From a virus: a stretch of 22,726 nucleotides of DNA. This document shows, one piece after another, positions 1 through 19,382 of the stretch. How positions within the stretch are numbered: position 1 is the stretch's first letter; every line of letters starts with the position of its first letter. Below the pieces are notes generated by a model. That model saw nothing but the letters and a program-made list of their open reading frames with translations. It was not told the DNA's origin and ran no database searches. The translations under genes were made by a program, and so were the position numbers. Location of the stretch: positions 1 through 22,726 of the IMG/VR virus record IMGVR_UViG_3300037882_000507; one strand, 5' to 3'.

Positions 1-123
1 TCGGAGTTGCATCGATTGTGTTGTTAACTTCTTGCAACTCGCATACAATGAATTAGTTCCTTGAGTGTTGCCAAATAAGCGCAGGTTTCCCTCACTGTTC
101 CCTGCGCGGGTTTGGTTATTGGG
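1..123. repeat. Left terminal inverted repeat (123 bp)
   Basis: The reverse complement of the last 123 bases of the window matches these bases with one mismatch (C at 100, against a base equivalent to T at 22627). The match ends at 123 and the sequences diverge at once. The repeat contains an 8-bp stem (4-11 with 33-40) and a larger hairpin (71-115). It includes the stop codon and last full codon of the leftward endolysin gene. It is either a true genome end or the edge of an inverted repeat where assembly stopped; the perfect outer part is exactly 99 bases. Confidence 0.97.
71..115 (-). terminator. Hairpin in left repeat, possible terminator of endolysin transcript
   Basis: CCAAA (71-75) pairs with TTTGG (111-115), and GCGCAGG (79-85) pairs with CCTGCGC (101-107), separated by a 3x3 internal loop. 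Read leftwards it lies directly after the endolysin stop codon. There is no clean U-tract after the stem, only a short T-rich stretch within the element, so intrinsic termination is plausible but not proven. The same structure lies just after terL at the other end. Confidence 0.4.
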
Positions 124-586
124 AGATGTAGTTCTGGTACTTCTCGATAGACTCGGACTTCTTGGCTTTGCCTTTTTCAGTGTTGTAATACTTCTTGTAA
201 TAAGACCAAATATCGTCAATCTTGCTCGCATCTGGTAACTTCTCAGCAATCCTGAAATAAAACAATCGACTCATTGCAGTCGCATATCTTAAATCATAGA
301 TAAGTCGTTCTTCTGGCGGTATCAGGTTTACGTTGAAGTGCATTCCTAACAAAGTGGATATCTTTGAATTGCGCGTAATAAACCTTTGCCATAAGTCGCT
401 ATAAGTAGCAGGTTCCATCTGATATATACCAAGAGCAGGCCCCTTTACTTGAGCGAGATAATGACCCCCGAGGCTCTCTGTTGCACAGGTGAAAACAAGT
501 AATTCCTCCGCATGTGAACTGTACAACTGCAACGAATCAAGAGCTGGCTTGATAATTAAGTTTCTTAATTGCTTTGAATCAATCAT
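116..586 (-). CDS. Endolysin, lysozyme/transglycosylase-like
   Basis: This 156-aa protein probably cleaves peptidoglycan at the end of infection. Residues 33-58 hold the pattern TCATESLGG...GPALGIYQMEP, typical of phage lysozyme/SLT-like endolysins; Glu37 in ATES is the likely catalytic acid. A later YYKKYYNTEKGKA stretch also fits the family. There is no signal peptide, so it would need a holin, and none is recognised in the window. It is the only leftward gene. Its start codon lies 39 bases from that of the small terminase subunit, with AAGGGA on its own strand at 592-597 as ribosome binding site. Its stop codon falls inside the left inverted repeat. The family is clear, but which glycosidic bond it cuts is not. 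Confidence 0.82.
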   Translation of the reverse strand: MIDSKQLRNLIIKPALDSLQLYSSHAEELLVFTCATESLGGHYLAQVKGPALGIYQMEPATYSDLWQRFITRNSKISTLLGMHFNVNLIPPEERLIYDLRYATAMSRLFYFRIAEKLPDASKIDDIWSYYKKYYNTEKGKAKKSESIEKYQNYISQ

Positions 587-602
587 AATGTTCCCTTATA
601 GT
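574..602 (+). promoter_or_regulatory. Candidate sigma70-type promoter for the rightward late genes
   Basis: TTGAAT (574-579) and TATAGT (597-602) are separated by 17 bases and match the -35 and -10 consensus at 4 and 5 of 6 positions. The predicted start near 609 lies just before the terminase small subunit start at 626. The -35 and spacer lie inside the first codons of the leftward endolysin, and the -10 abuts that gene's ribosome binding site. The call rests on consensus match and position only. Confidence 0.45.
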
Positions 603-625
603 TAAATAAAACACTGGATGTACAT

Positions 626-1204
626 ATGGCAAAATACAGTGCATGGGAATTATACGAAGGAGTGACTGGTAATGCACAGGTTTATAAAGAAACCGTACAT
701 TGCCCAATGATTATAGAATTGATGGAAGCTGGCTACTCCATAGCCGGATTCTGCACCGATGCAGGAATTAGCGAAAAAACATTTTATAAATGGCTTAGAG
801 CACACCCAGTCTTTAAAGAATGTTTTGAAATAGGATACACCATAGCAAAACATAACTGGGAACAAGAGCTAGAAGAATCAGACGATGAGTTTAATCATGA
901 CCTCTGGAAAGCTCGCGGATTCTCCAGGAAATTCCTTGGAAAGAACAACAATGTTCGCCTAACAATGGAATCAGAATCAAATCCCTATGAACAATACCAA
1001 CAGTTAATTGAACAAGCTAATGACGGGGATTTCACCGCATCAGAACTAAAACAATTAATGGAAGGAATAAACGTAGGCCGAGTATCCTACGAAACATTTG
1101 TACTGCAAGGTGAAATTGATAAAATGAAAAAAGACCTTGTGGAAATGGAAGTAAGCAATGAGCACAATATCATCCCAATTGCGCCAGTTACGAAAACTAA
1201 TTAA
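626..1204 (+). CDS. terS: Terminase small subunit
   Basis: This 192-aa protein probably recognises phage DNA and loads the large terminase for packaging. Residues 36-58 form a helix-turn-helix of the kind seen in phage small terminases (AGISEKTFYKWLRAHP), followed by a helical acidic segment and a C-terminal helical region likely used for oligomerisation. It is the first rightward gene and precedes portal, scaffold and capsid, whereas the large subunit is about 20 kb away at the other end. The start ATG has only a weak upstream GGAT. A generic HTH regulator is less likely given the neighbours. Confidence 0.75.
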   Translation: MAKYSAWELYEGVTGNAQVYKETVHCPMIIELMEAGYSIAGFCTDAGISEKTFYKWLRAHPVFKECFEIGYTIAKHNWEQELEESDDEFNHDLWKARGFSRKFLGKNNNVRLTMESESNPYEQYQQLIEQANDGDFTASELKQLMEGINVGRVSYETFVLQGEIDKMKKDLVEMEVSNEHNIIPIAPVTKTN

Positions 1205-1292
1205 AATAAGAACACGAATTGAATTTGTAGACCATAATGTGCCGTCTAGTGAATTCAAACCCGGAGTAATCTATATTCACATTTGGATATAA
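1158..1292 (+). CDS. Small overlapping ORF, 44 aa, unknown function
   Basis: An ATG at 1158, inside the end of the terminase small subunit gene and in another frame, has GGAAG about 6 bases upstream. It opens a 44-codon frame that spans the whole otherwise empty gap and stops at 1290-1292, where the ribosome binding site of the next gene (GGAG, 1294-1297) begins. The product is basic at its N-terminus and ends in a hydrophobic stretch (PGVIYIHIWI). I do not recognise it. The exact filling of the gap and the position of the stop suggest translational coupling, but chance is possible at this length. Confidence 0.45.
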   Translation: MSTISSQLRQLRKLIKIRTRIEFVDHNVPSSEFKPGVIYIHIWI

Positions 1293-1303
1293 AGGAGCAA
1301 GTG

Positions 1304-1570
1304 ATGAGCAAGCTGTCACGATGGTTGGATAAAAACGTAACCCATAAAACCGCTACACAAGAATCAATCGAAGCCGCAGCAGAGCAAATTGATTTTTATA
1401 AGAAGCAAAAAGATAACATGGAAAAAGAAAATGCAAGAATTACCGAGGAACGAAAGGTTGAGAATCAACGCATTCATGAAAAACAATTAAGAAGCCTAAG
1501 ACGCAGATACAGCTCAAGCAAGTTTCTTGATAACTCCCCATCAACCGACTTAAACAGCACACTAGGGTAA
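1304..1570 (+). CDS. Hypothetical 88-aa charged helical protein
   Basis: The start at ATG 1304 is chosen because GGAG lies 6 bases upstream; an in-frame TTG at 1283 has no such site. The product is very rich in Lys, Glu, Arg and Gln. It probably forms one long helix or coiled coil over residues 15-70, then a Ser/Asn-rich tail. It lies between terminase small subunit and portal, and the portal ATG follows 2 bases after its stop codon. No family is recognised. The position suggests a packaging or head-assembly accessory role, but that is inference. Confidence 0.65.
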   Translation: MSKLSRWLDKNVTHKTATQESIEAAAEQIDFYKKQKDNMEKENARITEERKVENQRIHEKQLRSLRRRYSSSKFLDNSPSTDLNSTLG

Positions 1571-1572
1571 TC

Positions 1573-3189
1573 ATGATTCCAACAACCCAGGATGTAAGCG
1601 GAGATACCCCAAAAGTAATGCAGCAGTTTATGAAGCGTTTAAAACGCGCTCAAGGAATCGCTGACTTATGGATGGGACTACATCAGGCCTGTTACTTTTA
1701 CGCCATACCCAACAGAAACAAATTCTGGAGGCCTAAAGAACAGCAAGGAGAATTAAGAGGTGCTCGCGTATACGATACAACAGCAATTGACGGAACAAAT
1801 ACCTTTGTTTCTAAAATGCACCTTGCTATGACTCCACCGCAAACACAATGGGGCTATTTGAACATTGACCCAGACTGGAAGTTGGATAATCCAGAACTTG
1901 TAGAACAGGCACAACTCCAATTAGATGACTACATGCGAAAACTATTCGAATTCATCCATGATTCCAATTTCGATGTAGTCATCAACGAATGTTATTATGA
2001 TTTAGGTGTCGGTACTGCTTGCCTTGTAATCAACTCATTAAGCCTTGAAACCCCGTTACTCTTTACCTCAATACCAATGGACAAACTTGCCATTGAAGAA
2101 GCCATGACAGGTAAAATCGAATCATGGTATAGGAACTGGGAAGATGTAAAAATAAATGAGATAAAAGTACGCTGGCCTAAAGCAACACTACCAGCAGAAT
2201 ACTTAAAAGATTTAGCACAAGACAATCAAGCCACCGTTGCATTAATCTATGAAGGAGTAATGTACCGGCCTGAGAATAAAAAGAAATACTGTTATGTGGT
2301 ATGTGCTCAAAATCATTTGCTTTATTATGAGGATTTCGAATACAACCCAGGCATAGTATGGCGATTCAGAAAAACAAATAATGATGTCTTTGGACGTGGC
2401 CCAATTATGGATGCGCTTCCTTCAATCATTAGCTTAAATGAAATGGCGCGAATAGAATTGGCCAGTGCCAACTTAAATACTTTCAAACCCTACATGGGAT
2501 TTAGTGATTCAGTATTTAATCCGCATACATTTAAAATCGAACCAATGACAGTAATTCCCATTGCGCAAATAGGCTCACAAGGTCAAGTTCCACTAATTCC
2601 ATTGCCCGATACATCCAACCCACAGTTTGCCCAATTAACCATTATGGACTTGAGGATGCAGATTAAAACCCTGCTTTTTGCTGATTCCCCAATACCTCAA
2701 GATGGAAAGCAACCCGTATCCGCAACAGAGTTAATGATTAGCACCCAAATGCTAGCCGAACGTATTGGTCCTAATTTCTCAAGACTACAACACGAATTCA
2801 TTCTACCCACATTGCAAAACTGCGCGTTCATATTAAACAAAACCGGATTGCTGCCCTTCCCAGTCATTCAAGGCGAAAACGGAAAAGCACGAATCAGTTT
2901 TAAATACATATCGCCTTTAGCACTGGCAAAAGGGCAGGAACAAGTCTCACGCTTTACTCAGTGGTTCCAAATCATTCAAGGTGTATCTGGCCCCGAACAA
3001 GCACAGCTATTTATTAACTCAGGAAAATACCCTTGGATATTAGCTAACTTAATGCAGCTTGATTTGAACCTATTGAACTCTCCAGAAGGCGTACAAAATG
3101 TGGCGCAACAAATGCTAGACCAAGGCAATGAAATGCAAGACCAAATGATGGAAGCTCAAGAGAATCAAACACCACCACCTACACAATAA
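1573..3189 (+). CDS. Portal protein (T7-like head-tail connector)
   Basis: This 538-aa protein should form the dodecameric ring at one capsid vertex, through which DNA enters and leaves and to which the tail attaches. Length and pattern fit the podoviral head-tail connector family: an N-terminal helical segment (FMKRLKRAQGIADLW), the RGARVYDTTAIDGTNTFVSKM stretch typical of the family, a central DVFGRGPIMDALPSI segment, and a C-terminus rich in Gln and Met. The early position, directly before a Bbp19-like protein, scaffold and capsid, fits T7-like order. No truncation is seen. Confidence 0.93.
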   Translation: MIPTTQDVSGDTPKVMQQFMKRLKRAQGIADLWMGLHQACYFYAIPNRNKFWRPKEQQGELRGARVYDTTAIDGTNTFVSKMHLAMTPPQTQWGYLNIDPDWKLDNPELVEQAQLQLDDYMRKLFEFIHDSNFDVVINECYYDLGVGTACLVINSLSLETPLLFTSIPMDKLAIEEAMTGKIESWYRNWEDVKINEIKVRWPKATLPAEYLKDLAQDNQATVALIYEGVMYRPENKKKYCYVVCAQNHLLYYEDFEYNPGIVWRFRKTNNDVFGRGPIMDALPSIISLNEMARIELASANLNTFKPYMGFSDSVFNPHTFKIEPMTVIPIAQIGSQGQVPLIPLPDTSNPQFAQLTIMDLRMQIKTLLFADSPIPQDGKQPVSATELMISTQMLAERIGPNFSRLQHEFILPTLQNCAFILNKTGLLPFPVIQGENGKARISFKYISPLALAKGQEQVSRFTQWFQIIQGVSGPEQAQLFINSGKYPWILANLMQLDLNLLNSPEGVQNVAQQMLDQGNEMQDQMMEAQENQTPPPTQ

Positions 3190-3204
3190 CACTAAGAGGG
3201 AACA

Positions 3205-3546
3205 ATGAATTTAGAAGATAACCCATTTATTAAGCCTGAAAATTTCTTTGAACAATACAATGAACAAATTGAAGAACTAAGAAAGAATCCAAATTACATT
3301 GAAATGGATAGATTGTGCTATGAAGTATTTGGAAGAACCGAAGAAGGAAAAAGACTGCTTGCTTTGTTACAAGAGCGTTATGTAGTTCCAGGTACTCCAA
3401 GCTCACCATCAGTTCAAAATTACGCGATGACGTGCGTGTATTACGAAGGTTTTAGAGATGCGTACAGACAATTAATTCATGCAACTAAAAGTTATCAATT
3501 GCGTAAAGAAGCAGAAATGAACGCCGCATTGAAAGAAGGTGATTAA
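3205..3546 (+). CDS. Bbp19-like phage protein, 113 aa
   Basis: The product is a small acidic, helical protein. Its pattern (CYEVFGRTEEGKRLLALLQERYV, then a conserved YYEGFRDAYRQLIHA segment) resembles the Bbp19-like domain found in podoviruses between portal and scaffold genes. The function of that family is not established; the location suggests a head-assembly role. GAGGGA lies a few bases before the ATG. It sits 15 bases after portal and 2 bases before the scaffold start, so the three are probably co-translated from one message. The family assignment is from pattern memory only. Confidence 0.6.
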   Translation: MNLEDNPFIKPENFFEQYNEQIEELRKNPNYIEMDRLCYEVFGRTEEGKRLLALLQERYVVPGTPSSPSVQNYAMTCVYYEGFRDAYRQLIHATKSYQLRKEAEMNAALKEGD

Positions 3547-3548
3547 TA

Positions 3549-4271
3549 ATGGGATTAATGAACCAGGAAATAGAAACTCAATCTTCAGAAGATGAGACTA
3601 TCAATAATGGAACGTCACAAGAAACACCAGAAGACCAACCCAATTGGTGGATTGAAGATGGAATACCAGGAGTCGGTGAACGTCCCGAATGGCTACCAGA
3701 AAAATACAAGACAGCAAAAGCATTATCAGATGCCTATAAATCATTAGAACAAAAATTAGGACAGGCTCCAGATAAGTACGACTGGGAATCTGGAAAGGAT
3801 TGGTTAGATCCCGATTACGAACCATTCCAGGAAATGGCAGAACTCGCACGAACCAATCACGTACCACAACCAGTAATGGATAAGATGCTTGAATCAGTGG
3901 GTAAGTATCTTAAAGAATTTCAAAATGATTATACGGAAGAACGACAAAAACTCGGTGAGAATGCAGGTGAGCGATTAACCCAATTAGAAAACTGGGTCAA
4001 AGCAAATTTCACTGAATCATCGTACGTGGCATTAACTAACAGTCTAAAAACAGCAGAATCCATTCAAGCACTAGAGGAGCTAAGAGATAAAATGATTAAT
4101 AACAACACTACAATTCCAACAGGAAATGAACAAAGCAATGTAACCAGTGAATCAATCGAAGACATTGAGCACGAAATTGCAAGTAATCTTGATAAATATA
4201 AAACCGACAATAAGTATCGTAGTGAATTACAACAACGTATTGCCAAGGTCGTTAATAAATCTACTAATTGA
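3549..4271 (+). CDS. Scaffolding protein
   Basis: This 240-aa acidic protein probably guides capsid assembly and is then removed from the head. It has the usual podoviral scaffold features. These are an acidic disordered N-terminus, then the RPEWLPEKYKTAKALSDAYKSLE motif near residues 46-68 that recurs in phage scaffolds, a long helical middle, and a short basic C-terminus of the kind that usually contacts the capsid protein. It lies directly before the major capsid gene. The start could be the ATG at 3549 or one three codons later. The stop codon overlaps a promoter-like TTGACA. Confidence 0.85.
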   Translation: MGLMNQEIETQSSEDETINNGTSQETPEDQPNWWIEDGIPGVGERPEWLPEKYKTAKALSDAYKSLEQKLGQAPDKYDWESGKDWLDPDYEPFQEMAELARTNHVPQPVMDKMLESVGKYLKEFQNDYTEERQKLGENAGERLTQLENWVKANFTESSYVALTNSLKTAESIQALEELRDKMINNNTTIPTGNEQSNVTSESIEDIEHEIASNLDKYKTDNKYRSELQQRIAKVVNKSTN

Positions 4272-4292
4272 CAACTAATTTAGTAATATAAT
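4268..4292 (+). promoter_or_regulatory. Candidate promoter for the major capsid gene
   Basis: A perfect TTGACA (4268-4273) overlaps the scaffold stop codon, and a perfect TATAAT lies at 4287-4292. The 13-base spacing is too short for a standard sigma70 promoter; pairing TTGACA with TAATAT at 4289-4294 gives 15. It could be a non-standard promoter or chance in AT-rich DNA. It would make a capsid message with a leader of roughly 130 bases. Confidence 0.35.
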
Positions 4293-4298
4293 ATCCTA

Positions 4299-4426
4299 TG
4301 TCCATGTGCCTTTTGCTCCAATGAGCAACTAACAGGACACCTTATCAAGAGGCCTCATTCGAGACACCCTCACTATTGTTAAGCCCTATTAGACAAACGT
4401 GTTTAATTACATTAAGACTAATAGGG
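4299..4426 (+). promoter_or_regulatory. Structured leader of the capsid gene with stem-sequestered ribosome binding site
   Basis: This non-coding stretch before the major capsid gene holds a compound hairpin: TGTCC (4299-4303) with GGACA (4335-4339), and inside it TTGCTC (4313-4318) with GAGCAA (4323-4328) around a 4-base loop. A second 9-bp perfect stem pairs CCCTATTAG (4384-4392) with CTAATAGGG (4418-4426). The 3' arm of that stem contains most of the AGGGG ribosome binding site of the ATG at 4435. Closing it should reduce capsid translation. The pairing is direct observation; the regulatory role is inference. Confidence 0.5.
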
Positions 4427-4434
4427 GAAATACC

Positions 4435-5265
4435 ATGTCTTTATCTTTGACGAATGTCCAACAAATAGAGTTCGATGCGCTTGTGAAAGCCATCTACCGG
4501 TCACGTGGTTTTTTATTGCGTGATACTTTAAGAATGAAATCCGATGTAGTTGGTAATCAGGTTGAATTTAGAACCGTTGATGAAGTCATCGCGGTACAAA
4601 CTCAATACTTGGCTGCCGTTACCATCCAAGACCCTAACTATCAAAAAGCACGTGCCACTTTGTTAAAATACACCGCACCTACTGCGGTAGACGAAGTGCA
4701 AGAGCTTACAGTTAACTTTGATGCCAAAATGGAAAACGCCATGTTGGTCGCTCAAGCAATGGGAAGACGTTCTGACCAAATCTCTATTGATGCAATAGTA
4801 GCAGATCCAGGCGACACCATTGTTAACGGTGGTACAAACTTTGACTACGAGAAATTTACTCGTGCTTTAGAGTTCTTTGATAACAATGCCGTTCCTTTAA
4901 GTGAGCGTTTTGTTGCAATGAGCGCGTCAAACTTCCGTAGCTTGCTGGGCGATGACCAATTCGTTTCTACTTTCTACACTAAGAATGACGTTATTGACCG
5001 TGCGCGAATCAGAGAATACTTAGGCTTTAACGTAATCATTATCCCACAAATGACAGAGGGCGGATTGCCTAAGACTGGTAATATTCGTACTGCTCTAGCA
5101 TGGCATAAAATGGCCGTTGGGGCTGGTATCGGTAAAAACTTTAGAACTGAGATTAACTACATAGCACAAAACACTGCCTGGTTAATCAATGGCGTGTTCT
5201 CAATGGGTGCGGTCGTGGTGGATAATCGCGGGGTGTTAGCTATAGATTGTGATGAATCAGTCTAA
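4435..5265 (+). CDS. Major capsid protein
   Basis: This 276-aa protein is most likely the head shell subunit. It follows portal and scaffold directly, and the sequence looks like a HK97-fold podoviral coat protein: an N-terminal helix (QQIEFDALVKAIYR), a long middle domain, the segment RIREYLGFNVIIIPQM, and a C-terminal stretch ending MGAVVVDNRGVLAIDCD. The start at ATG 4435 is preferred to an in-frame GTG at 4399 because AGGGG lies at 4423-4427 and because the family begins near MSLSLTNVQ. The leader appears structured, with the ribosome binding site in a stem, so expression may be controlled at translation. Confidence 0.87.
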   Translation: MSLSLTNVQQIEFDALVKAIYRSRGFLLRDTLRMKSDVVGNQVEFRTVDEVIAVQTQYLAAVTIQDPNYQKARATLLKYTAPTAVDEVQELTVNFDAKMENAMLVAQAMGRRSDQISIDAIVADPGDTIVNGGTNFDYEKFTRALEFFDNNAVPLSERFVAMSASNFRSLLGDDQFVSTFYTKNDVIDRARIREYLGFNVIIIPQMTEGGLPKTGNIRTALAWHKMAVGAGIGKNFRTEINYIAQNTAWLINGVFSMGAVVVDNRGVLAIDCDESV

Positions 5266-5295
5266 TCACCAATACAATAATTAAGGAGATTAAAA

Positions 5296-6090
5296 ATGAC
5301 TTTTGATATCACACGTTGGACTAGACAGACTTTAGCGTTCAACTCTGGCGCATTAGTACTTGATGGCCCATTAACAGAAAATGGCCCTGCATTGTTTTCT
5401 TATCAATCAGCAGCAGATGCTTTAGCAACAATTGCAGCAGCAAACTATTTCTCTAGCCAGGTTAGAGACTTAGCGGTTGGTGATATAATTTTTGTTAATG
5501 GTAGTGATGCATCCAACATGTATATAGTAGCTACTGTTGATAGAGATGCTGAAACTATTACAGTATCTTCATTCACTGCTTCTGGTGTTGTAGCTACAGC
5601 TAATATTCAAGATGGTGCAGTAACTACTGCCAAACTTGCAGATGGTGCTGTTACTAACGCTAAACTTGAAGAAGGCTTAATTAACCACGTTCAAGTTGAT
5701 GTGGCACTTGCTGATTTTATTGGTAGCTATACCGCATCAGAACTATTAGTTGCAGCTCCAGGCGCAGGAAAGAAAATAATTCTGCACAGAGCAACACTTG
5801 CAATTAATTATGGCGGTACTGTATTGGCAAGTGGTGGTGCTTCTCATATCCAATATGCGAACACAGCAAATGGTGCAGGTCCTAAAGCAACAGGCACAAT
5901 TGCAGCAGCTACTTTAATTGCCGCAACTGCTGATACTACTTTTGGATTTACACCAGTAGATACTACTTTAGTAGATTCAACCACATTGAACCAAGGTTTG
6001 TATTTTGCAATGGCTACAGCCGATTTTACTGGCGGTACTTCATCAACTTACAAATTTGATTTGTGGTATTCTATAGTAGATTTAGCATAA
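5296..6090 (+). CDS. Fibre- or decoration-like virion protein
   Basis: This 264-aa protein, low in charge and rich in Ala, Thr and Gly, is preceded by AAGGAG. Residues 106-125 are two copies of a ten-residue repeat (DGAVTTAKLA / DGAVTNAKLE), a motif seen in trimeric phage fibres and head decoration proteins. The N-terminal part is predicted as a compact domain binding the particle. The C-terminal part is a beta-rich domain reminiscent of decoration or adhesin heads. Its place between capsid and tail tube genes favours a head fibre or cement protein. No exact family is recognised. Confidence 0.6.
   Translation: MTFDITRWTRQTLAFNSGALVLDGPLTENGPALFSYQSAADALATIAAANYFSSQVRDLAVGDIIFVNGSDASNMYIVATVDRDAETITVSSFTASGVVATANIQDGAVTTAKLADGAVTNAKLEEGLINHVQVDVALADFIGSYTASELLVAAPGAGKKIILHRATLAINYGGTVLASGGASHIQYANTANGAGPKATGTIAAATLIAATADTTFGFTPVDTTLVDSTTLNQGLYFAMATADFTGGTSSTYKFDLWYSIVDLA
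5611..5670 (+). repeat. Tandem 30-bp coding repeat
   Basis: Two adjacent 30-base units encode DGAVTTAKLA and DGAVTNAKLE within the fibre-like gene. The DNA copies differ at several sites, mostly at third codon positions, so the peptide repeat is under selection and is not a recent duplication. Confidence 0.8.
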
Positions 6091-6103
6091 TTAAGGAACT
6101 GAT

Positions 6104-6700
6104 ATGGCATTAACTCAAGTCCAAATCCTATCAAATTCTTTGATTCAATTAGGACATGAGCCTATCAGTTCAATTGAAGGTGGAGACGCTTTAGTCGTCT
6201 CTGCCATCTCTGCTTATGATATTAAATTACCAGCAGCACTTGCAGCCAATAACTGGCGATTTGCAACACAGCTTGCGCAACTATCCAAATTAAATATAAC
6301 TCCACCCCAGCCTTGGTTATCAATTTACCAATTACCAGCAGGATGGTTAAAATTATTAAGACTGTACCCCAACATTTATCAATGGGATATTTATTCGGGT
6401 AACCAGTTATTTGCAGTTTATGACGATGAACTTTGGGCAGAATACGTTTTTCAACCGGATGTATCCCAGTTCCCAGCCCACTTTGTCGATTATTTTACAT
6501 ATGAAATATCAGCCTATCTTGCATTAACCAATGCTAACAAAGCTGATTATTATTCGGCTCTTGAATCAAAAAGAACTTCAACTCTTGGAATTGCCGCAGC
6601 AATAGAAGCACAAAACAGACCACAGTTTACTCAGAACCTATTCCCTGTTCTGGATAACAGATATATTGGTGGTATCATTGGAAATTCAATCAGCAGCTAA
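6104..6700 (+). CDS. Tail tubular protein A (T7 gp11-like)
   Basis: This 198-aa protein should form the ring that joins portal to the tail nozzle. The N-terminal SLIQLGHEPISSIEGGDALVVSA stretch, the conserved AANNWRFATQ, and the ISIYQLPAGWLKLLRL-like segment are typical of the T7 gp11 tail tube A family, and the length (about 200 aa) is normal. AAGGA precedes the ATG. The tail nozzle gene follows 11 bases later, as in T7-like phages. Confidence 0.9.
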   Translation: MALTQVQILSNSLIQLGHEPISSIEGGDALVVSAISAYDIKLPAALAANNWRFATQLAQLSKLNITPPQPWLSIYQLPAGWLKLLRLYPNIYQWDIYSGNQLFAVYDDELWAEYVFQPDVSQFPAHFVDYFTYEISAYLALTNANKADYYSALESKRTSTLGIAAAIEAQNRPQFTQNLFPVLDNRYIGGIIGNSISS

Positions 6701-6711
6701 TTGAGGCGATT

Positions 6712-9237
6712 ATGGCCGCTTTAACTTGGAGTCAGGACATATTTTCAAAGGGTGAACTTTCTCCTTTGCTGTATGGCCGTGTAACTGTTACCGCATATTA
6801 CAATGGTGTTAAATCAGGAAGGAATTGTATTACCTATCCACAAGGTGGCATAGGCAAACGATTTGGTACTTTATATCAAAACGTGATTACAGGTGTGACA
6901 GATTATCGTCAGATATTTTTTGACACGTTTGAGTACTTAAATGAATGCACTTACATCTTAGTAATTATTCCAGATTCAATACAAATATATCTAGAAGGAA
7001 TTCTAGTCGCAACCGTTGCAGCAACAGGAATAACGGCGGCAATGATTCCCCAGCTTGACACGACCATTCTTGAAAATAGATTTAGAGTATCCAGTGGTGT
7101 AAATAATATTGGTGCTACAGCGTTTAGACCAAGAGATTTATTAAGAACTGCCAATGCAGCCAATGCGATTGTTACAGCAGCAGCCGATTTATTGACGCTA
7201 ACCAATGCGCTAACATCAGGAACAATATACCCTGTTCAATTCACTACTACAGGTACATTACCTACTACAGTTCCTCAAGTCACTACTAATAAAACGTATT
7301 TTCTTTATATGACAGGAACTACTACAGCCGAACTGTACGGTACGGCTGAAGAAGCAAAAGCACGAGAAAATAAATACACCATAACCAATAATGGCGCGGG
7401 AACAAATAATGCCTATGTACTGAATACATGGGCATTCAGTAATGTTAATTTTAAAAATGTTCCGGTTTATGATTTTGAAAACAATTATTCTGCCATTTCA
7501 TTTACTCCAGGTGCGCAGTTAGGCTATAACATTACATTAACAGCGAGTGCGCCTATTTTTACGACAGGGATGGTTGGGGGCGCATTTGCTGGCAATGGTG
7601 GTGTAGGTCGTATTATTTCTTGGACGTCTACCACAGTGGTTAATATGAACATTGTCCAATCTTTTGATAGTACCGCAGCAATACCAGGGGATGCGGCTCT
7701 GTTAACAGAACCAGCTTGGAGTAATGAAAGAGGATGGCCTTCAAGATGTTCATCATTTCAAAGTCGCTCTGTATTCGCTAATACGCCCTTATTGCCCAAT
7801 GGATTATGGCTTTCTGTTATCAATGATTACGCTAACTTTGACGGATTGCTTTTAGATGATGATGATTCGATTTCTTACTATCCAACATCGGACAACATAA
7901 ACTACATTAAATTTATTGTTCCCTATCGCTCATTAACCATTCATACTAACACAGGCATTTATTCAACACCTTTGTCTTTTGAGCAAGCAGTAACGCCTAC
8001 TAACTTCTCAATGACCCTGCAAGATTCAACGCCAGCAACAGCCATACAGCCTCGTGGAATAGACAACCAAATTATTATTGTATCCGGCAATGACATACAT
8101 TCGATGCTTTGGGATGGATTCAATAACGCTTATAGTTCATCCATAGCCTCTATTGCGAATGAACATTTAATTAGAAACCCACACGATGAATCAGAGTATG
8201 TTGATTTAAATAAAGCAGGCTCTCGGTATATGTTTTTTATAAACGATGACGGCTCGCTTATTATCTTTCAAACATTAATATCAGATGACGTTCAGGGATT
8301 CACGCCCCAATACCTAGACCAAAGCTATGGCAATGCTTATTTTAGATGGGCTACAGCAAGTACTGGTGGCCGTGGGTGGTTTGTTACCGAAAGAGAAATT
8401 GCAGAGGCCGCACTTTCTTACGACATTACAGACTTTACAAGCGATACCTTGGAAACCACAACCTCATGGCCTACAGAAGAACCAAGGCTTATTCAATTTA
8501 CTACAACGGGAAGTTTGCCAACATCAACGCCTCAAATTGAATTATCTACTTGGTACTGGGCTTTAAGTGCTGGCGGATTATTTGCTACCATTTATTTAAC
8601 AGAGCAAGATGCACGAGATGGAGTTGCCGCCATAGAATTTTCCGATGCAGGAACTAATTCAAAAATTCAAAACTGGCCTCTTGTAACAAAATTCTATCTT
8701 GAGGAATTATCCTTTGATGTATTTACGGATTGCTCGCAAGTTTATTCAGGAGTTGCAACCTCAACACTTGCAGGTATAGGCGCGTATGTTGGACAAGACA
8801 TTCAAATACAAGGTGATGGATATGGTTTTGAAGTAGTTCCCACTTCAACTACAGTCAATGTAGAGGCTCATGGCGCAGCCGTTGAAGTAACAGAAGCATT
8901 CTATGGATTCCCAATTGATGTTGAAATAATCCCATTACCTATTGCGCCACCCGGAACAGTTGGTGCAAAAGGCTCTGGCATGGTGTGGGAACAAAACATT
9001 CGCTCAGTTCAATTAATGTTTGCTGACACTATATCTGGTGAAGTAAACGGAGTACCCATACAATTAAATAAATTCAGCCAGGTATTACCTAATGTTGCAC
9101 CAATACCCAGAACTGGAGTATTTAAAATAAGTCCAATGAAAGGGTGGGATATGTTTAATGTGGATGCATTAACTATTACCCATAGAGCACCTTTTGATAT
9201 TAAACTAATAGGTATATTTTATAGAGTAGAGGTGTAA
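6712..9237 (+). CDS. Tail tubular protein B (gp12-like nozzle)
   Basis: This 841-aa protein probably forms the distal tail nozzle. The N-terminus has the family signature FSKGELSPLLYGRV...YPQGGIGKRFGT, and the later RNPHDESEYVDLNKAGSRYMFF and TTSTTVNVEAHGAAVEVTEAFYGFP segments fit propeller-like nozzle proteins of podoviruses. Two related insert modules are visible: one starting near residue 175 (VQFTTTGTLPTTVPQ) and one near residue 594 (IQFTTTGSLPTSTPQ). Each continues into a beta-rich stretch of about 80 residues. Such FTTTG-LP modules recur in phage surface proteins and may be carbohydrate-contacting. Total length is at the upper end for the family because of them. Confidence 0.88.
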   Translation: MAALTWSQDIFSKGELSPLLYGRVTVTAYYNGVKSGRNCITYPQGGIGKRFGTLYQNVITGVTDYRQIFFDTFEYLNECTYILVIIPDSIQIYLEGILVATVAATGITAAMIPQLDTTILENRFRVSSGVNNIGATAFRPRDLLRTANAANAIVTAAADLLTLTNALTSGTIYPVQFTTTGTLPTTVPQVTTNKTYFLYMTGTTTAELYGTAEEAKARENKYTITNNGAGTNNAYVLNTWAFSNVNFKNVPVYDFENNYSAISFTPGAQLGYNITLTASAPIFTTGMVGGAFAGNGGVGRIISWTSTTVVNMNIVQSFDSTAAIPGDAALLTEPAWSNERGWPSRCSSFQSRSVFANTPLLPNGLWLSVINDYANFDGLLLDDDDSISYYPTSDNINYIKFIVPYRSLTIHTNTGIYSTPLSFEQAVTPTNFSMTLQDSTPATAIQPRGIDNQIIIVSGNDIHSMLWDGFNNAYSSSIASIANEHLIRNPHDESEYVDLNKAGSRYMFFINDDGSLIIFQTLISDDVQGFTPQYLDQSYGNAYFRWATASTGGRGWFVTEREIAEAALSYDITDFTSDTLETTTSWPTEEPRLIQFTTTGSLPTSTPQIELSTWYWALSAGGLFATIYLTEQDARDGVAAIEFSDAGTNSKIQNWPLVTKFYLEELSFDVFTDCSQVYSGVATSTLAGIGAYVGQDIQIQGDGYGFEVVPTSTTVNVEAHGAAVEVTEAFYGFPIDVEIIPLPIAPPGTVGAKGSGMVWEQNIRSVQLMFADTISGEVNGVPIQLNKFSQVLPNVAPIPRTGVFKISPMKGWDMFNVDALTITHRAPFDIKLIGIFYRVEV

Positions 9238-9238
9238 C

Positions 9239-9838
9239 ATGGTATTGCCATTAGTCGCTATAGGAGCAGGTGCAGCCGCATCTGGCGCAGTTGGTGGTGC
9301 AGGTGCCGCTTTAGGTGGAACCTTATTATCTGGTGCTTTTTCGGCATTTCTCTTGTCCATGCAAGCTGGCGGTTTAATCACTAACTTTGCACAGCAAAAA
9401 AATCAAAAGAAATTAATTGCAGCAGGCAAGCAATTAGAGCAAGCGTCTTTTGAGACTAATATGGAAGCTATAAAGTTAGAATCCAATGAAGCGTCACTTA
9501 ATGAATTAAAACAATTACGGCAAAACATTGGCACACAAATTGCAGCAAATGCCGCTAAGGGTACTGATTCAGGCGCAGGAAGTGCAGCCTTTACTATTGA
9601 AAAATCAAAGTCCAATTTCTTGTCCGATGAACGAGTAAGGCGATTTAATTTACTGGCTAAAGAAGCAACATTGAGAGCAAACAAAGTGCTGTCAGGACTT
9701 CATTCTCTTGAAAGCGAAACACAATTAGGCAGAAACATGACTTCCACTTTATTAAATCAAATGCCAATCAGCTCAACTATTGATATGGTTCGCAAAAGTA
9801 AATTTTCTACAAAATGGTTTGGTGAGGGAGTAGCTTAA
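9239..9838 (+). CDS. Internal virion protein (gp14-like)
   Basis: This 199-aa protein is likely stored in the head and ejected first, to form a pore in the outer membrane. The first 45 residues are almost all Ala, Gly, Val and Leu (a membrane-active segment), followed by a helical region rich in Lys, Gln and Glu. The LRQNIGTQIAANAAKGTDSGAGSA stretch is characteristic of T7 gp14-like proteins. Its start codon is 1 base after the nozzle stop, with GAGGTG upstream, and its stop overlaps the ATG of the next internal protein (TAATG). Confidence 0.8.
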   Translation: MVLPLVAIGAGAAASGAVGGAGAALGGTLLSGAFSAFLLSMQAGGLITNFAQQKNQKKLIAAGKQLEQASFETNMEAIKLESNEASLNELKQLRQNIGTQIAANAAKGTDSGAGSAAFTIEKSKSNFLSDERVRRFNLLAKEATLRANKVLSGLHSLESETQLGRNMTSTLLNQMPISSTIDMVRKSKFSTKWFGEGVA

Positions 9839-12318
9839 TGGCTAATCAAATAAAACCACAAAGTAAGTCACTTCCTGCCGCAAAAGACACGCCAATTCTG
9901 CAACCAAAAGAATCTCCATCTTATGCTCCTGGTATGCCTAACTATCAATCTGCTTTTTCAAGTGCGGCATTTTCACCAAACTCAATGGCAGAGCTTGGTA
10001 ATAAAATGTCTTTAAGTGCGAGTGTTGCTTTAGCACAAAAGGCAGGTACTTATTATGGGAAAAATCCAAAAGGGGAATTAATCCCTGCAATAACACAAAC
10101 GGATAAGGCATTTTCTGATGCGTACAGTGCGCAAGCGGAGTCAACACTTGGACTACAAGTTCAATCAATGATGCTTAAAGGCCGTGAAGAGATGGAGAAG
10201 CAATACCAACTCACGCCTCAAATGATACAGCAATACACGTCCAATATGGCGCAAGGCATTAATGATGCGCTTAAACTTGCCCCAAGCACCATCCGACCGA
10301 ATCTTGAAAATCAATTTGCAAGTCAACTCATGAAATCTTCTCATAATTTTACTATGAGTATGATTGATAAGAACAAGCAAATTGCCCAGCAAACAAGTGC
10401 TGTCTGGCAAGCAACACAACTTCAATCCATGCACGACACCATTTTAGATGGCGACATGCAAGGTGGCGCAGACATTTATAATTCAATTCAACAAAGAATT
10501 AAAAGCGAATTGTCAGGCGGTATGATTTCACCGACTCAAGCATATAAACTTGAGCAGGAATCAAAATTGAATCTTTATTCATCATCAATGATTCAACAGG
10601 CCATTGAAGCAAGAAATGGCAATAAAGTAGAACAGTTCCTAAGTGACATGCCAAAGAGTAAACCTGAGAGTTTAACCTGGGGTGAATGGGAGCATGTATA
10701 CAATCAGACTGTTGCCTACGTTGGCGCACTTGAAAATTTAAGCAATCGAAATGATTCCCTTGTTATTGCGCAAGCACGGGCAAGAGCATCTACGGCCCCA
10801 TTGACTCCTGATTACATTGAGGAAATAAGAGAGCAATTACCTGCTACAAAATTCCTTAATTTTATGACGAGTTATAGAGCGACTCAAATAAAACAAAGCA
10901 AAACTAAGCTAGCGACAGATGACTTAGCAGCCCATTGGACTGACACACTTTCATGGTCTAATAGAACCAAAGACCAAATCAATGGTGCTTATGATTTAGT
11001 AGTGCAAGACAATTTAAACAAAGCTGAAAAAAACAAGAAGCCTTTAACTCAAGTTCAGGCTGAAACACTAGCCGCAGAAACCGCACAAGGTGCAGTACCT
11101 AAGTTTCTTGATACCATTACTAAAGCGATTACTTCTGGAAATCCTCAGCTCGTTATGGACTATAGCGGAGCATTAGACCGAATTCAAAACAGAGGCGGTC
11201 AAAAAACCAGGGGGCTTGATAAAAGCGTCTTTGCCACTCATGAAGCATTTAAACATTTTTTATCTCAAGGATATACCACAGGAGAGGCGGCTGCATTTTC
11301 TAAAACTATGCTGGATAGAACCCCGGAAGATAGGGAGCGAATAGAAGAAACCGTTTCAGCATGGGAAAAGAAAACCGCCAAAAATGATAAAAAAACATTA
11401 AGCTGGGCAAGAGATATTGCAGGGATTAGCGAAGAAACTCAAGTACTTAATCAGGCCGGTTTTGCCAATTATCTGAAAGACATTTTTAAAGACAATCTGC
11501 GCTACAGTAACGGAAATGAACAAATAGCTACTAATATGCTGCAATCCGCATTAAAAAGAAACTGGGGAACTACTGAGGTGAACGGTCAGCAACAGTTTAC
11601 TATCTACCCTATTGAAAAGGTACTGGATTTAGAAGCAGGTGCTTTGCCCTTAATTCAAGACGACATCCATGAGCAATTAAAAACTCAGTTTGATGCGACT
11701 CAAGAAGGATATAACAAAGGTTTGTTTAATTATTATTACCGATTAAAAGAGCGGGTTACTTTTTATGATTTTGAACAAGCGCAAAAAACAGTAGATTCAT
11801 TTTATGATTCAAAGAATAGTTCATTTTTTGATTTTTTAGGTAAATTCGGTGAAAGTGCTACCAATGAAGAAGAAAAAATAAATCAATTTAATAAAGCTCG
11901 TGAAACCATTAAAGAATACAAGAAGGGAAATGCGAACGTCGTGGAGATGGTTTATTCCGATGGGACAGTTCAAGAGTATCCAATTGAAGTACGCCCTGGA
12001 AGTTTCATGACTGCCAGTGGTAGTGAAAATCCTACTATAGGTGATTATGACATTGTGGCAATGAACCCAAGCAAATTACCTATTGTTCTTTATGGCTCAT
12101 ACATTGGACAACAACATCATCCTATTTACAGGCCTAACATTAATAAAATTAAATCTCGATATTTTGATATTAACGGTATAGTGGGTGACGACCCACAGGG
12201 TCAATTTGAAGCAGATAAAGTACTTTCTCAGTTAAAAACTGATACTCCAGCAGGTTTGCCAGGCTCTGTACCAGTAAATTTAAACTTCATTGATGCTTTA
12301 TTAGGGAATAAAAAATGA
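9838..12318 (+). CDS. Internal virion protein (gp15-like)
   Basis: This 826-aa, largely helical protein has an N-terminal Pro/Ser/Ala-rich tail and long Gln- and Lys-rich segments. Size and place between a gp14-like and a very large third internal protein match T7 gp15, a component of the ejected periplasmic tunnel. No enzymatic motif is seen. It begins at a TAATG overlap with the gene before and ends in an ATGA overlap with the gene after, so the three are strongly coupled in translation. The assignment depends mainly on gene order, size and composition. Confidence 0.7.
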   Translation: MANQIKPQSKSLPAAKDTPILQPKESPSYAPGMPNYQSAFSSAAFSPNSMAELGNKMSLSASVALAQKAGTYYGKNPKGELIPAITQTDKAFSDAYSAQAESTLGLQVQSMMLKGREEMEKQYQLTPQMIQQYTSNMAQGINDALKLAPSTIRPNLENQFASQLMKSSHNFTMSMIDKNKQIAQQTSAVWQATQLQSMHDTILDGDMQGGADIYNSIQQRIKSELSGGMISPTQAYKLEQESKLNLYSSSMIQQAIEARNGNKVEQFLSDMPKSKPESLTWGEWEHVYNQTVAYVGALENLSNRNDSLVIAQARARASTAPLTPDYIEEIREQLPATKFLNFMTSYRATQIKQSKTKLATDDLAAHWTDTLSWSNRTKDQINGAYDLVVQDNLNKAEKNKKPLTQVQAETLAAETAQGAVPKFLDTITKAITSGNPQLVMDYSGALDRIQNRGGQKTRGLDKSVFATHEAFKHFLSQGYTTGEAAAFSKTMLDRTPEDRERIEETVSAWEKKTAKNDKKTLSWARDIAGISEETQVLNQAGFANYLKDIFKDNLRYSNGNEQIATNMLQSALKRNWGTTEVNGQQQFTIYPIEKVLDLEAGALPLIQDDIHEQLKTQFDATQEGYNKGLFNYYYRLKERVTFYDFEQAQKTVDSFYDSKNSSFFDFLGKFGESATNEEEKINQFNKARETIKEYKKGNANVVEMVYSDGTVQEYPIEVRPGSFMTASGSENPTIGDYDIVAMNPSKLPIVLYGSYIGQQHHPIYRPNINKIKSRYFDINGIVGDDPQGQFEADKVLSQLKTDTPAGLPGSVPVNLNFIDALLGNKK

Positions 12319-15300
12319 TAGAAAAGACCCCAATAGATGAGCATTTATACCCAATTAATGAAACAAATTATAAAGACCCATATCAAAGAGAACATAACAA
12401 TGTGGGATCCATTCCTGGATTAACGGTTGATACCACCTCAATTGACCCTAAAGCTTTTATTGATAACCCTGGCGACTTTATGTTGCCTAATCAATCCAAT
12501 GTCCAATTAAAAAATGTTGCCGAACAGCCTGGTTGGTTACAAACTTTTGGCCATGCATTAAAAGAAACTAACGAACTAGTTAATGCTGGTAACTTCTTTG
12601 CTAACACACGGGATGAAGTAACTCATTGGAATGATGAAGTTCCTGATAATTGGTCAGCAATGGAATTTGAATCCGTTAATGGATTTCCTCATAAGTACTG
12701 GCCATTTTTAACCAGTGCTGTAAGCCCCAATGATTTAATAGCACGACAGGAACGTGTTAGAGAACAAATGCATGATGACGAATTCTATTCAAGAGGCTCA
12801 TTCACTGCTGCGCTTTTAGGTGGCGTTGCTGGTGCCATTACAAGTCCAAGCACTTATATTTTCCCTACATTGGGTGGAATTCGTTATGCTGGATTTAGTC
12901 AAAACATCATTAAGAATACGGTTAAGGCTGCACCTGCATTAAGTGCCTCGATTGTAGCCAATGAAGGAATGAGAGAAGCCGCAAGAGCGGGTGGCAATCT
13001 TGAGGATTTAGTGCTTAACAGTACTCGTGATTTAATCTTTGCAAGTGCTTTGGTTGGTGGTGGTGCGGTTATTGGGCATAGTTTAAATGGTGGACAGCTT
13101 TGGAATTTAAGGAATTTTGTTAATGCCAATTACAAAGGAATTGATATAGTTCCTCGCATTAATAAAAAAGGCGAAGCAATAGGCCTTGATGCGGTTCCTA
13201 ATTCTAATTTCAGCGTGTCAGCAGCCGAAGTACAAGAAGTACAAGAGTATGTTAATAACGAATACATGAAGTCTGGATTATTTAAAATTCCATATCTTGG
13301 CAAAGGTGCTGAAAAGGTATTGGGTAACAAACTTCTTGGTTCTAATATATTACGTGGCCTATCCTCTGATTTTAAAACAATTGCTTACTTTACAGACCGA
13401 ATGGCAGCGCATGGAATTATTACTAAAGGCCTTGCCTCTGGAAAAGAGCGCGCACTTACTGCCGAGGAAAACCTTGGAATTATAAAAGCGCATACCACTA
13501 TATTTAATTCATCTCTTAGAGGACTGTTCTTTAAAATGAACGGACTAGAAGGGGGCGTAAATACTAAAAACGCCATTAAAAATTTTAAACAAGCACTAAC
13601 TAAAAATCAGGAAATTAATTGGGAAGAATTTGGAAAGCAAATTCGTTCTACCATTCTTACTGGTGAATCTTCTGATAATGCGCACATTAACGAAGGCGCA
13701 AAAATGGTGACTGAATTTATTGATTCGATTGCAAAACCATTTAGAGAAGCTATGGGATGGTCAGAAGACTTCTTATCACCTCGCACTTCTATTGGTTACT
13801 ACATGCAAAATTACAATATTGAACAAGTAGTAAAAAGACCAGGTGATTTTGTTACTTTTGTTAAATCTCAATTAGCTGAACAAGATAAATTAATAGGTGA
13901 ATTAGAAGCACCAATTAATGAAGCAAAAGCACATTTAAACCAACTTATTGCAGCACAACGAGATCCAAATTGGATTGAAACAAGAGCCTTTGTTAATGAA
14001 ATTAATGAAGCAAGAGCGCGTTTGAAGAATGAACGAAACATATTGGTTAATCAGTTACGCGACAATCACAAACTGCAAATATTAGCCGAAGAACGTATTT
14101 TATTAAATTCAGAAGAAGCAGACGAATTATCAGCCATACTGAAACCCGTTACTGATATTGATAAAGAAATAAGCAAAGCCAATGTGTTGTTGCGCAAAGC
14201 AAAAGAAGATTTGTCCTCTAAAAAAGAACAATTAAAATCATCATTAACGGATAAAACAAGACAAAAAAATATTGATGAAATTGAACTTTTGACTAAAGAA
14301 GTCGAGCGTCTTAAAAAAGAAATTAAAAAAATTGCAGATAAAAAAGAAAGTGTGCTTTCCATGCTGGAGCAAAGCGCATTTGAGGGTAAAATAAATCCCA
14401 AGTTTTTTAAAAAAATACCTGATTCATTTCAAATTGAGTTTTTAAATCCTAATGAATTGCCTAAATTAAGAAAGCCTTTTGAATCTGATTATCATCGTGA
14501 GCAATACGCCATTGCTTTTGGAGAAACTTTAAAGGGAAATAGTCCTGAACAATTGAACCAGCAGATGCTTGGGCAAATGTTCCCTGGACGCATTGAGACA
14601 CCACAATACCTTAAAAAAAGAAGTATTATGATACCAGCAGAGGAATTTAATCAGGCTGGATTTCTTGATAACAATTTGGATAGGTCCTTGTCATCCTATG
14701 CTTTAGCTTTAGGCAGACATACAGCAATTAGAAAAGCATTTAATCATTATTCACAAGAGCCATTATTTGACCGTGTTATTGCTAATTTAAATAAAGAACG
14801 CAAAGAAAAAGAAGCAACTATTGCCGAAATTGCAGATGAAAAGAAACGTGAAAAAGCCTATGTAAAATTAGATAAGAAATTTACAGAAGCAAAACAACAT
14901 GTAAATGATTTTTATAATACCTATATGGGTTTTAATGATTCTAATCCAACAATAAGACGAGTAGCACAAAACATTAGAAACTACACCGCTTTAATCCGTT
15001 TAGGTGGCGTTCCCATTTCACAGATTACCGACTTAGGTGCTATTGTATTAAAGCAAGGTCTCTATCCTACACTTTCACAAGGTTTAAAGCCCATGCTGTC
15101 CAGCCTTAATGGAATTCTAAAAACTAAAGATGCTGCGCAAATGAAAGAAAATGCAGCACATGGTTATGTAGGAATTCAACATTTAGCGCATGGTTACAGC
15201 AATAAAATGCTCAATGCAGACACCATGCAAGACGCACCAGTCATTGGTAAACTCAGTTCAGGATTACAAAATTTAACGCACATGTCGGGTAATTTCTACG

Positions 15301-16202
15301 GCACCAATGCCATTGAAAACATGAACCAAGTGATGACGGCCAACATTGTTCAATCAAAAATTATGAAAGCAGTGTTTGATTACCAAAAAGGTAAATTAAC
15401 AAAGCAACAGGAATTAATGTTAGCTTCTGTTGATATCAATCCCAAGCAATGGTCAGACCGATTTATTAAAGGTTATGAAGATGCTAAGGGCTGGAATGAG
15501 GGCGCAGGTTATCAAAGCAATTATTTTAATTGGTCGGATAATGAAGCCACGACAAAAATGGCTGAGGCTATTTATAGAGAGACTTACAACACAATAGTTC
15601 AGCGCGGAATGTTCAGTTCTCCTTTCTGGACTAAAGACCCCGTATTAGGATTATTTTTTACATTTAATGGGTGGGCATGGGGTGCATTAAATCGCTACAC
15701 CATCCCATTAATGCAACGTCAGGACGCACAATCTTTTATTGGTGTTGGTGTTATGTTTGGATTGGGAATGCTTGCTAATCCATTGCGTGAACTGGCTAAT
15801 GGAAAAGAAGTAAACCTTGAAGACGAACATTTATTTAAAAATGCATTATTAGATTCAGGATTTTTAGGCCCAACTTCTAACGTATTAAACTGGGCTAATA
15901 TTGTGATGAACCATAATTTAATTCCTGGATTGCAAAATGAAAAGACCCGTCAACTTTCTAAAATGGGCGCACTTATGGGGCCAGTTGGTGGTGTTGCAGA
16001 TGATGCATTTAATATACTAGAGCATTTCTGGGTAGGGGATTATACTCAAGCAGACGTTAAAAAATTGGCGCGATTAATTCCATTTACAAGTCATTTGGCA
16101 TTTAGAAAACTTATAAACGGAACAATTGACCGAAGCAATATACCAGAACAAAGAACGGACGCTGAACCTAGAGCGTTATGGCAAGCATTGAAAGGAGAAT
16201 AA
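12315..16202 (+). CDS. Giant internal virion protein (gp16-like), 1295 aa
   Basis: This is the largest gene of the window. Its place and size match the T7 gp16-type internal core protein that crosses the cell envelope during ejection. Visible parts: a hydrophilic N-terminus; a Gly/Ala-rich hydrophobic segment near residues 162-192 (FTAALLGGVAGAITSP); a highly charged coiled coil from about 515 to 695; a second amphipathic part; and a hydrophobic C-terminal stretch near 1103-1157 (GLFFTFNGWAWGALN, GVGVMFGLGMLANPL). Unlike T7 gp16, no lytic transglycosylase motif is seen. It starts within the stop codon of the previous gene (ATGA). Confidence 0.75.
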   Translation: MIEKTPIDEHLYPINETNYKDPYQREHNNVGSIPGLTVDTTSIDPKAFIDNPGDFMLPNQSNVQLKNVAEQPGWLQTFGHALKETNELVNAGNFFANTRDEVTHWNDEVPDNWSAMEFESVNGFPHKYWPFLTSAVSPNDLIARQERVREQMHDDEFYSRGSFTAALLGGVAGAITSPSTYIFPTLGGIRYAGFSQNIIKNTVKAAPALSASIVANEGMREAARAGGNLEDLVLNSTRDLIFASALVGGGAVIGHSLNGGQLWNLRNFVNANYKGIDIVPRINKKGEAIGLDAVPNSNFSVSAAEVQEVQEYVNNEYMKSGLFKIPYLGKGAEKVLGNKLLGSNILRGLSSDFKTIAYFTDRMAAHGIITKGLASGKERALTAEENLGIIKAHTTIFNSSLRGLFFKMNGLEGGVNTKNAIKNFKQALTKNQEINWEEFGKQIRSTILTGESSDNAHINEGAKMVTEFIDSIAKPFREAMGWSEDFLSPRTSIGYYMQNYNIEQVVKRPGDFVTFVKSQLAEQDKLIGELEAPINEAKAHLNQLIAAQRDPNWIETRAFVNEINEARARLKNERNILVNQLRDNHKLQILAEERILLNSEEADELSAILKPVTDIDKEISKANVLLRKAKEDLSSKKEQLKSSLTDKTRQKNIDEIELLTKEVERLKKEIKKIADKKESVLSMLEQSAFEGKINPKFFKKIPDSFQIEFLNPNELPKLRKPFESDYHREQYAIAFGETLKGNSPEQLNQQMLGQMFPGRIETPQYLKKRSIMIPAEEFNQAGFLDNNLDRSLSSYALALGRHTAIRKAFNHYSQEPLFDRVIANLNKERKEKEATIAEIADEKKREKAYVKLDKKFTEAKQHVNDFYNTYMGFNDSNPTIRRVAQNIRNYTALIRLGGVPISQITDLGAIVLKQGLYPTLSQGLKPMLSSLNGILKTKDAAQMKENAAHGYVGIQHLAHGYSNKMLNADTMQDAPVIGKLSSGLQNLTHMSGNFYGTNAIENMNQVMTANIVQSKIMKAVFDYQKGKLTKQQELMLASVDINPKQWSDRFIKGYEDAKGWNEGAGYQSNYFNWSDNEATTKMAEAIYRETYNTIVQRGMFSSPFWTKDPVLGLFFTFNGWAWGALNRYTIPLMQRQDAQSFIGVGVMFGLGMLANPLRELANGKEVNLEDEHLFKNALLDSGFLGPTSNVLNWANIVMNHNLIPGLQNEKTRQLSKMGALMGPVGGVADDAFNILEHFWVGDYTQADVKKLARLIPFTSHLAFRKLINGTIDRSNIPEQRTDAEPRALWQALKGE

Positions 16203-16205
16203 TTC

Positions 16206-18913: not shown

Positions 18914-18926
18914 AAAGGAAACCATT

Positions 18927-19382
18927 ATGTCATTAAATTTAGTTGAAATTTGTTTAGTTAAATACCCCGGTCAAATAGAGGCTGGTAATATTTCATTTAA
19001 AAAACCAGATGAAAATATTTATTTTGCCCACTGGGCAGTTCCTGAAATATCTCAGCCAACAGAAGAATCAATATTAGCTGAGGAACCACAATGGGTAATA
19101 CCTTATGCAATGTTTCAGGCATTTAATGTGTTCTTACCATACATTGATAGGTTATTAGATACTACGGCTCAATCAAAGCAGTATGGAAATGCAGTATCGT
19201 GTGCAAGTTATGTATCAAGCACTAATCCACAATGGAAATTAGAAGCAGAAACTTTTGTATCGTGGCGTGATGCGGTTTTTGTTTATGCAATTAATATTCA
19301 AACGGAAGTGCAAGGTGGCGCACCCATTCCCTCATTTGAAGAATTTGTGGCAGGATTACCAGCGATTGTCTGGCCTAATTAA
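18927..19382 (+). CDS. Probable tail fibre assembly/chaperone protein
   Basis: The start at ATG 18927 is preferred because AAGGAAA lies just upstream and earlier in-frame codons lie within the fibre gene. The 151-aa product ends with WKLEAETFVSWRDAVFVYA...IPSFEEFVAGLPAIVWP. This C-terminal pattern is very common in phage proteins encoded next to fibres, usually annotated as tail assembly chaperones. The N-terminal half, with many aromatic and acidic residues (NIYFAHWAVPEISQP), is specific to this phage. The position directly after the fibre supports a role in fibre folding or trimerisation. No catalytic motif is seen. Confidence 0.6.
   Translation: MSLNLVEICLVKYPGQIEAGNISFKKPDENIYFAHWAVPEISQPTEESILAEEPQWVIPYAMFQAFNVFLPYIDRLLDTTAQSKQYGNAVSCASYVSSTNPQWKLEAETFVSWRDAVFVYAINIQTEVQGGAPIPSFEEFVAGLPAIVWPN

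Follow-up and report, generated by a model that had tools for sequence, protein, structure and literature searches.

Inverted repeats around a phage virion block point to a probable A-R-B-R' genome that isomerises by inversion

Introduction

What kind of genome leaves a block of virion genes with inverted copies of one sequence at its two ends? The question is raised by a stretch of viral DNA, referred to here as the window, that is 22,726 bp long. It is the whole of the IMG/VR contig IMGVR_UViG_3300037882_000507, so the inverted arms are true contig ends in the assembly. The original prediction for this DNA offered two readings: a linear genome with unusual termini, or a structural-gene cassette in a larger genome that could invert by recombination between the repeats. 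Here the window is compared with related contigs and isolates. The virion block is referred to as A, the repeat at its ends as R, and the block found in relatives on the far side of R as B.

The inverted ends and block A

The inverted ends are real. Positions 1-123 and 22604-22726 agree at 122 of 123 positions after reverse-complementing (BLAST E 2e-57, chance negligible). Outward of the single mismatch, C at 100 against A at 22627, the last 99 bases of the two arms are identical. The window holds no other long inverted pair and no direct terminal repeat. The arms had been described as abutting gene ends. On the right this is accurate, since the terL stop is at 22602, one base before the arm, but on the left the stop codon of the gene in the endolysin position (116-118) lies inside the arm, whose inner edge is 5 bp into the coding part. 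Two hairpins had also been described for each copy, and both were recovered (right-arm stems 22620-22626/22642-22648 and 22687-22694/22716-22723); the arms fold only mildly better than shuffled sequences (z -2.1).

Block A measures 22.5 kb in the window and 20-24 kb in the group. The genes at its two ends, endolysin and terL, read outward. A homologue of the gene in the endolysin position (116..586) adjoins R in relatives. No polymerase, helicase, primase or other recognised replication gene was found among the window proteins scanned. The label 'T7-like' given to this DNA suits the virion proteins but not the replication genes, which in relatives are lambda O/P-like and accompanied by SSB, thymidine kinase and exonuclease VIII.

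Two further features of the block can be mentioned. The genes for the small and large terminase subunits (626-1204 and 21340-22602) lie at opposite ends, each near a copy of R; phage ZP6 differs in that its two terminase genes are side by side. The ORF directly upstream of terL (20745-21287) has the appearance of an HNH homing endonuclease, without a Pfam match.

Table 1. Features of the window, with examples of the conserved R element in relatives
Feature	Position	Strand	Remarks
Left inverted-repeat arm	1..123	.	Edge of R, endolysin side, truncated by contig end
Right inverted-repeat arm	22604..22726	.	Edge of other R copy, terL side, truncated by contig end
Hairpin 1, right arm	22620..22648	+	GCGCAGG...CCTGCGC; placed like a terminator, directly behind terL; left arm has inverted copy
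Hairpin 2, right arm	22687..22723	+	GAGTTGCA...TGCAACTC; inverted copy in left arm
Block A, virion/packaging block between two R copies	124..22603	.	
Gene in endolysin position	116..586	-	phrog_3108, no function in libraries; reads outward into left R
Terminase small subunit	626..1204	+	
Head-tail connector (portal)	1573..3189	+	PF12236
Major capsid protein	4399..5265	+	Used for clade tree
Tail proteins at tail tubular protein A and B positions	6104..9237	+	
Large virion proteins (from position, size) and tail fibre	9838..18913	+	
GIY-YIG endonuclease gene inside virion block	16206-16790		
RusA-like Holliday-junction resolvase	20257..20667	+	
Terminase large subunit (terL)	21340..22602	+	Reads outward into right R
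R element examples	L024:8300-8420 (G004); G021 oriented 11624-11713		

Arm length and the assembler

The figure of 123 bp is probably the k-mer of an assembler and not the size of the repeat. Arms of exactly this length sit at the contig ends of G004, G040, G044, G045 and G063. Arms of 99 bp occur in G013, G029 and G071, and G031 has 99 exact bases from its contig end; further k-sized arms are 77 bp (G006), 103 bp (G074) and 127 bp (G062, G070). In one published JGI data set the k values were 23, 43, 63, 83, 103 and 123 for MEGAHIT and 33, 55, 77, 99 and 127 for SPAdes (PMC6646334). Both figures of the window, the 123-bp arm and the 99 identical bases to the ends, are on these lists and do not distinguish the assembler. 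Other lengths are also seen (e.g., 69-71, 78, 85-87, 97, 105-106 and 113-121 bp), so that agreement with k is a tendency and no rule. From the arm lengths at assembler k, the two copies in the window would run on, still identical, beyond the contig ends; it is because the copies of R are identical that short-read assembly halts just inside them.

Relatives that run through the repeat

Related contigs were collected by terminase, capsid and replication-gene searches. The group is a large, uncultured one: the capsid profile matched at least 177 viral contigs in one scan and at least 126 in another, the two sets overlapping. When oriented as the window, the longer relatives read A-R-B or B-R-A. 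Continuation past the repeat into B is found on the endolysin side in G004, G022, G026, G029, G032, G033 and G041, and on the terL side in G005, G006, G021, G031 and G048. In seven lineages R, measured from its A edge to its B edge, is 487-2104 bp long. Block B (7-13 kb) is a replication/recombination block. For example, that of G004 encodes exonuclease VIII, a conserved 292-aa protein, lambda O- and P-like proteins, SSB and thymidine kinase; gene content varies in the other relatives. In six lineages the sum of A, B and R counted twice is 31.9 to 36.4 kb, within the range of the genomes of related isolates (31.5-38 kb). Each long A/B contig crosses R once and, on reaching the other junction, ends just inside R.

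Inverted arms of at least 60 bp were present in 19 contigs of the first-pass table and in none of 11 control sequences. In 17 first-pass contigs, the window included, the flank on the endolysin side and the flank on the terL side carry matching inverted arms at the same place; in seven, an inverted edge of at least 60 bp is common to both B ends (G004, G006, G021, G025, G029, G032 and G041). One of these, G025, is block B alone, with 114 bp inverted at both contig ends; in G026 the inverted edge at the B ends is only 24 bp. An out-of-sample set of 14 contigs was chosen after the model had been formed, on the grounds that their length and the place of the capsid gene pointed to a complete block A. 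An inverted repeat of 99-174 bp was found in 11 (ten exact, one 97.7%), and the remaining three stop too early to judge. A fifteenth contig, fetched whole (G075), has a 113-bp inverted pair joining both B ends. The total with inverted arms of at least 60 bp is 31 contigs. In ten contigs of the out-of-sample batch a piece of the terL end recurs at the end with the endolysin gene, in inverted orientation with respect to A, and the same duplication of the terL 3' part lies behind the endolysin gene in G004, G013, G051, G052 and G054. Sequences resembling tRNAs were noticed by eye beside the A/R border, at the right end of G016 and in the left flanks of G013 and G046.

These observations strongly support the cassette of the original prediction, since relatives run past the repeat into B and both orientations occur. 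The window is very probably block A of a tailed phage with a circular map A-R-B-R' of 32-36 kb, quadripartite and isomerising by inversion. In such a circle R (roughly 0.5-2 kb) would occur twice, inverted, with one copy at each A/B junction. In relatives both the A ends and the B ends meet inverted edges of R; the window displays the A ends. Its full R and its B block, neither on this contig, are predicted from relatives, the nearest being G040. Inside the cell the genome would be circular or circularly permuted. No single contig holds both complete copies of R with all of A and all of B, so that the circle is something we infer.

Distribution in the clade

In the capsid tree a branch with support 99/96 separates the repeat-bearing contigs from four repeat-free isolates; G018, G027 and the isolates have long branches in this tree. 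The nearest relative of the window is G040, which also has 123-bp arms. One deep lineage (G046/G057) has no repeat in the flanks available, and the repeat is thus not established for every member. None of seven related isolates has an inverted repeat of at least 60 bp, and a search of GTDB genomes with terL and capsid profiles detected no relative. The capsid proteins of the window and of Dunaliella viridis virus SI2 (HQ332136, L235), which was recorded from an alga and is classed in the Caudoviricetes, are 34% identical. The host assignment of SI2 appears doubtful.

What the repeat carries

In many lineages R contains, from A to B, the 3' end of terL, a conserved non-coding element, a sigma70-type promoter and small genes. 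The element is about 75 bp long, with the consensus ACTGG-N-AGAGAGTTcTGGGGCACCGGA followed by a C-rich tail and with a CACCGGA core. Its profile matches nearly every flank of sufficient length; it is absent in five isolates and has no match in G056, and in G030 and G044 the terL flank stops before its position. As a structured RNA the element showed no covariation and no Rfam match (four sources), and the lack of covariation makes a protein-binding DNA site more likely than an RNA. A cleaved cos site was also considered and is not established; three contig ends do fall inside the element, but at different bases. As a guess, it is a candidate packaging or replication site, and R may have a signal of this kind in addition to its genes.

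The promoter of G004 is TTGACA-16-TATAAT, and a strict pattern of this type has a match in 12 of 19 R sequences. It reads into B from each side. The ORFs beside R on the B side likewise read into B at both ends in the six contigs checked. With the genes at the A ends directed outward and those at the B ends directed inward from R, flipping breaks up no transcription unit, and this speaks against an expression switch. Inversion of A relative to B would then be neutral for transcription.

A small gene carried by R (68-83 aa) was noted in G004 (L024:8548-8799), G010, G023 and G024. It is near-identical across lineages that are otherwise much more diverged, which suggests exchange of R between phages. 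An exact 31-mer of the window repeat had no match in viral contigs.

Orientation of the blocks and recombination between the copies

The two copies of R could be compared directly in one species represented by two contigs, G048 and G053, which are identical over 10,913 bp of A. R as it follows terL in G048 and R as it follows the endolysin gene in G053 are identical at 1151 of 1151 positions and then diverge into different B sequence. Within one genome the copies are 95.7-100% identical at their edges, whereas for edges from different genomes the median is about 58%. Concerted evolution of this kind requires that the copies recombine or undergo gene conversion with each other.

The blocks were assigned an orientation according to which way the exonuclease/292-aa genes point with respect to A. 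Orientation I was found in G004, G022, G023, G006, G021, G030, G032, G033 and G041, and orientation II in G005, G026, G029, G031 and G053; the call for G021 is weaker because its B is rearranged. The most direct comparison is that of G004 with G005. These share 14,978 bp at 100% identity, yet the B end carrying thymidine kinase follows the endolysin gene and R in G004 and follows terL and R in G005. Since R is longer than typical short-read inserts, the assembler's choice of B end is possibly arbitrary, and the pair suggests flipping without proving it. It is likely, on contig comparison, that A flips relative to B.

The same limit gives a static repeat its chance. On that reading A-R-B-R' is real, identity is maintained by gene conversion only, inversion is rare or never occurs, and the contig orientations are choices of the assembler. 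Contigs would not phase A against B across an R that exceeds the inserts, and G004 and G022 concur, both unlike G005. A static repeat does not sit well with the difference between G005 and G004 despite their full identity, nor with the variation among close lineages, where G026 and G029 differ from G032 and G033. Recombination that homogenises inverted copies should also give some crossovers. We regard a static repeat as improbable.

The agent acting on the R copies is likely to be homologous recombination, since a tyrosine recombinase (PF00589) was found in none of 17 partial genomes and a serine recombinase (PF00239) in only two, G030 and G031; most of these genomes lack some part. Genes for recombination include RusA in the window and exonuclease VIII and SSB in relatives. 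These phage functions probably aid recombination between the copies, which would both keep R identical and invert A relative to B. The conserved 292-aa protein of B was tried as a known annealing protein; it has no Pfam, PHROG function or NCBIfam match and no convincing PDB fold match. The serine recombinase gene of G030 and G031 (190-193 aa) is located in block B near the gene for this protein, in these two related members only.

Those two serine recombinases are what would favour a site-specific inversion switch that changes gene expression, like the G segment of Mu or the C segment of P1. Such a switch is highly unlikely here: the serine enzyme is missing from 15 of the 17 contigs and the tyrosine enzyme from all 17, most of them incomplete genomes, the block that flips is the entire virion module, and the relations of promoters to genes are unaffected by inversion.

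A linear genome, with inverted repeats as its physical ends (either hairpin ends or terminal inverted repeats of the phi29 and PRD1 kind), is extremely unlikely and is the part of the original prediction that is not supported. Many contigs do stop right after terL or endolysin; these stops often coincide with assembler k values, relatives run through the repeat into B on both the endolysin and the terL side, and no replication gene is recognised among the window proteins scanned. An assembly artefact, i.e., a chimeric or fold-back contig with one end duplicated in inverted form, would suit arms that lie exactly at contig ends and equal an assembler k in length, and is hardly credible when the repeat occupies the homologous place in dozens of contigs that come from different metagenomes and differ in repeat sequence, occurs inside contigs too, duplicates the terL 3' part behind the endolysin gene in several species, and is concordant over 1151 bp in G048 and G053.

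Comparison with known systems

Short-read assembly cuts genomes at repeats, and catalogues consequently hold many of these phages as 20-24 kb fragments labelled linear. The 22.7-kb contig of the window would be one such fragment. No tailed phage with this plan was found in the open-access literature, an absence that is weak evidence. T7-like phages carry direct terminal repeats and their own RNA and DNA polymerases. The window, whose B block lies off this contig, has no direct terminal repeat and no polymerase gene among the proteins scanned, and replication genes in relatives are lambda O/P-like. MEP301-like and Pelagibacter podoviruses (MEP301, Hodr and Lederberg) have related connector, capsid and terminase proteins and genomes of 33-35 kb, and MEP301 is annotated with recombination genes; in contrast to the contigs, these three are without an inverted repeat of at least 60 bp.

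Inverted repeats also bound the invertible segments of phages Mu (G) and P1 (C), which are small and switch tail fibres by means of an invertase of their own. The repeats of this phage clade, in contrast, enclose the whole virion module. Chloroplast repeats are homogenised and have shifting borders, and they are much longer than the phage R. The phage R differs in holding a promoter, small genes and often the terL end. In plan the two are alike, chloroplast DNA being a circle of large block, inverted repeat, small block and inverted repeat that exists as two isomers (PMC3147054). The yeast 2-um DNA is likewise a small circle with two inverted repeats (599 bp) and two isomers, and inversion there can trigger double rolling circle replication (PMC3147054). 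It relies on Flp acting at FRT sites, whereas no conserved site-specific recombinase was found in the 17 phage contigs scanned.

HSV-1 also has two unique blocks (UL and US) with inverted copies of junction repeats between them, and forms four isomers by inversion (PMC3147054). It belongs to another virus order, and the phage repeat is 0.5-2 kb. It is possible, if doubtful, that the clade is independently herpesvirus-like, with free flipping, repeats that carry a packaging signal and an early promoter, amplification by double rolling circle and virions of mixed isomers. Isomers between inverted junction repeats are already known in herpesviruses, chloroplasts and yeast 2-um DNA. A member of the phage clade with this layout would be a simple system in which to ask why genomes isomerise, whether for their mode of replication, for packaging or as a by-product.
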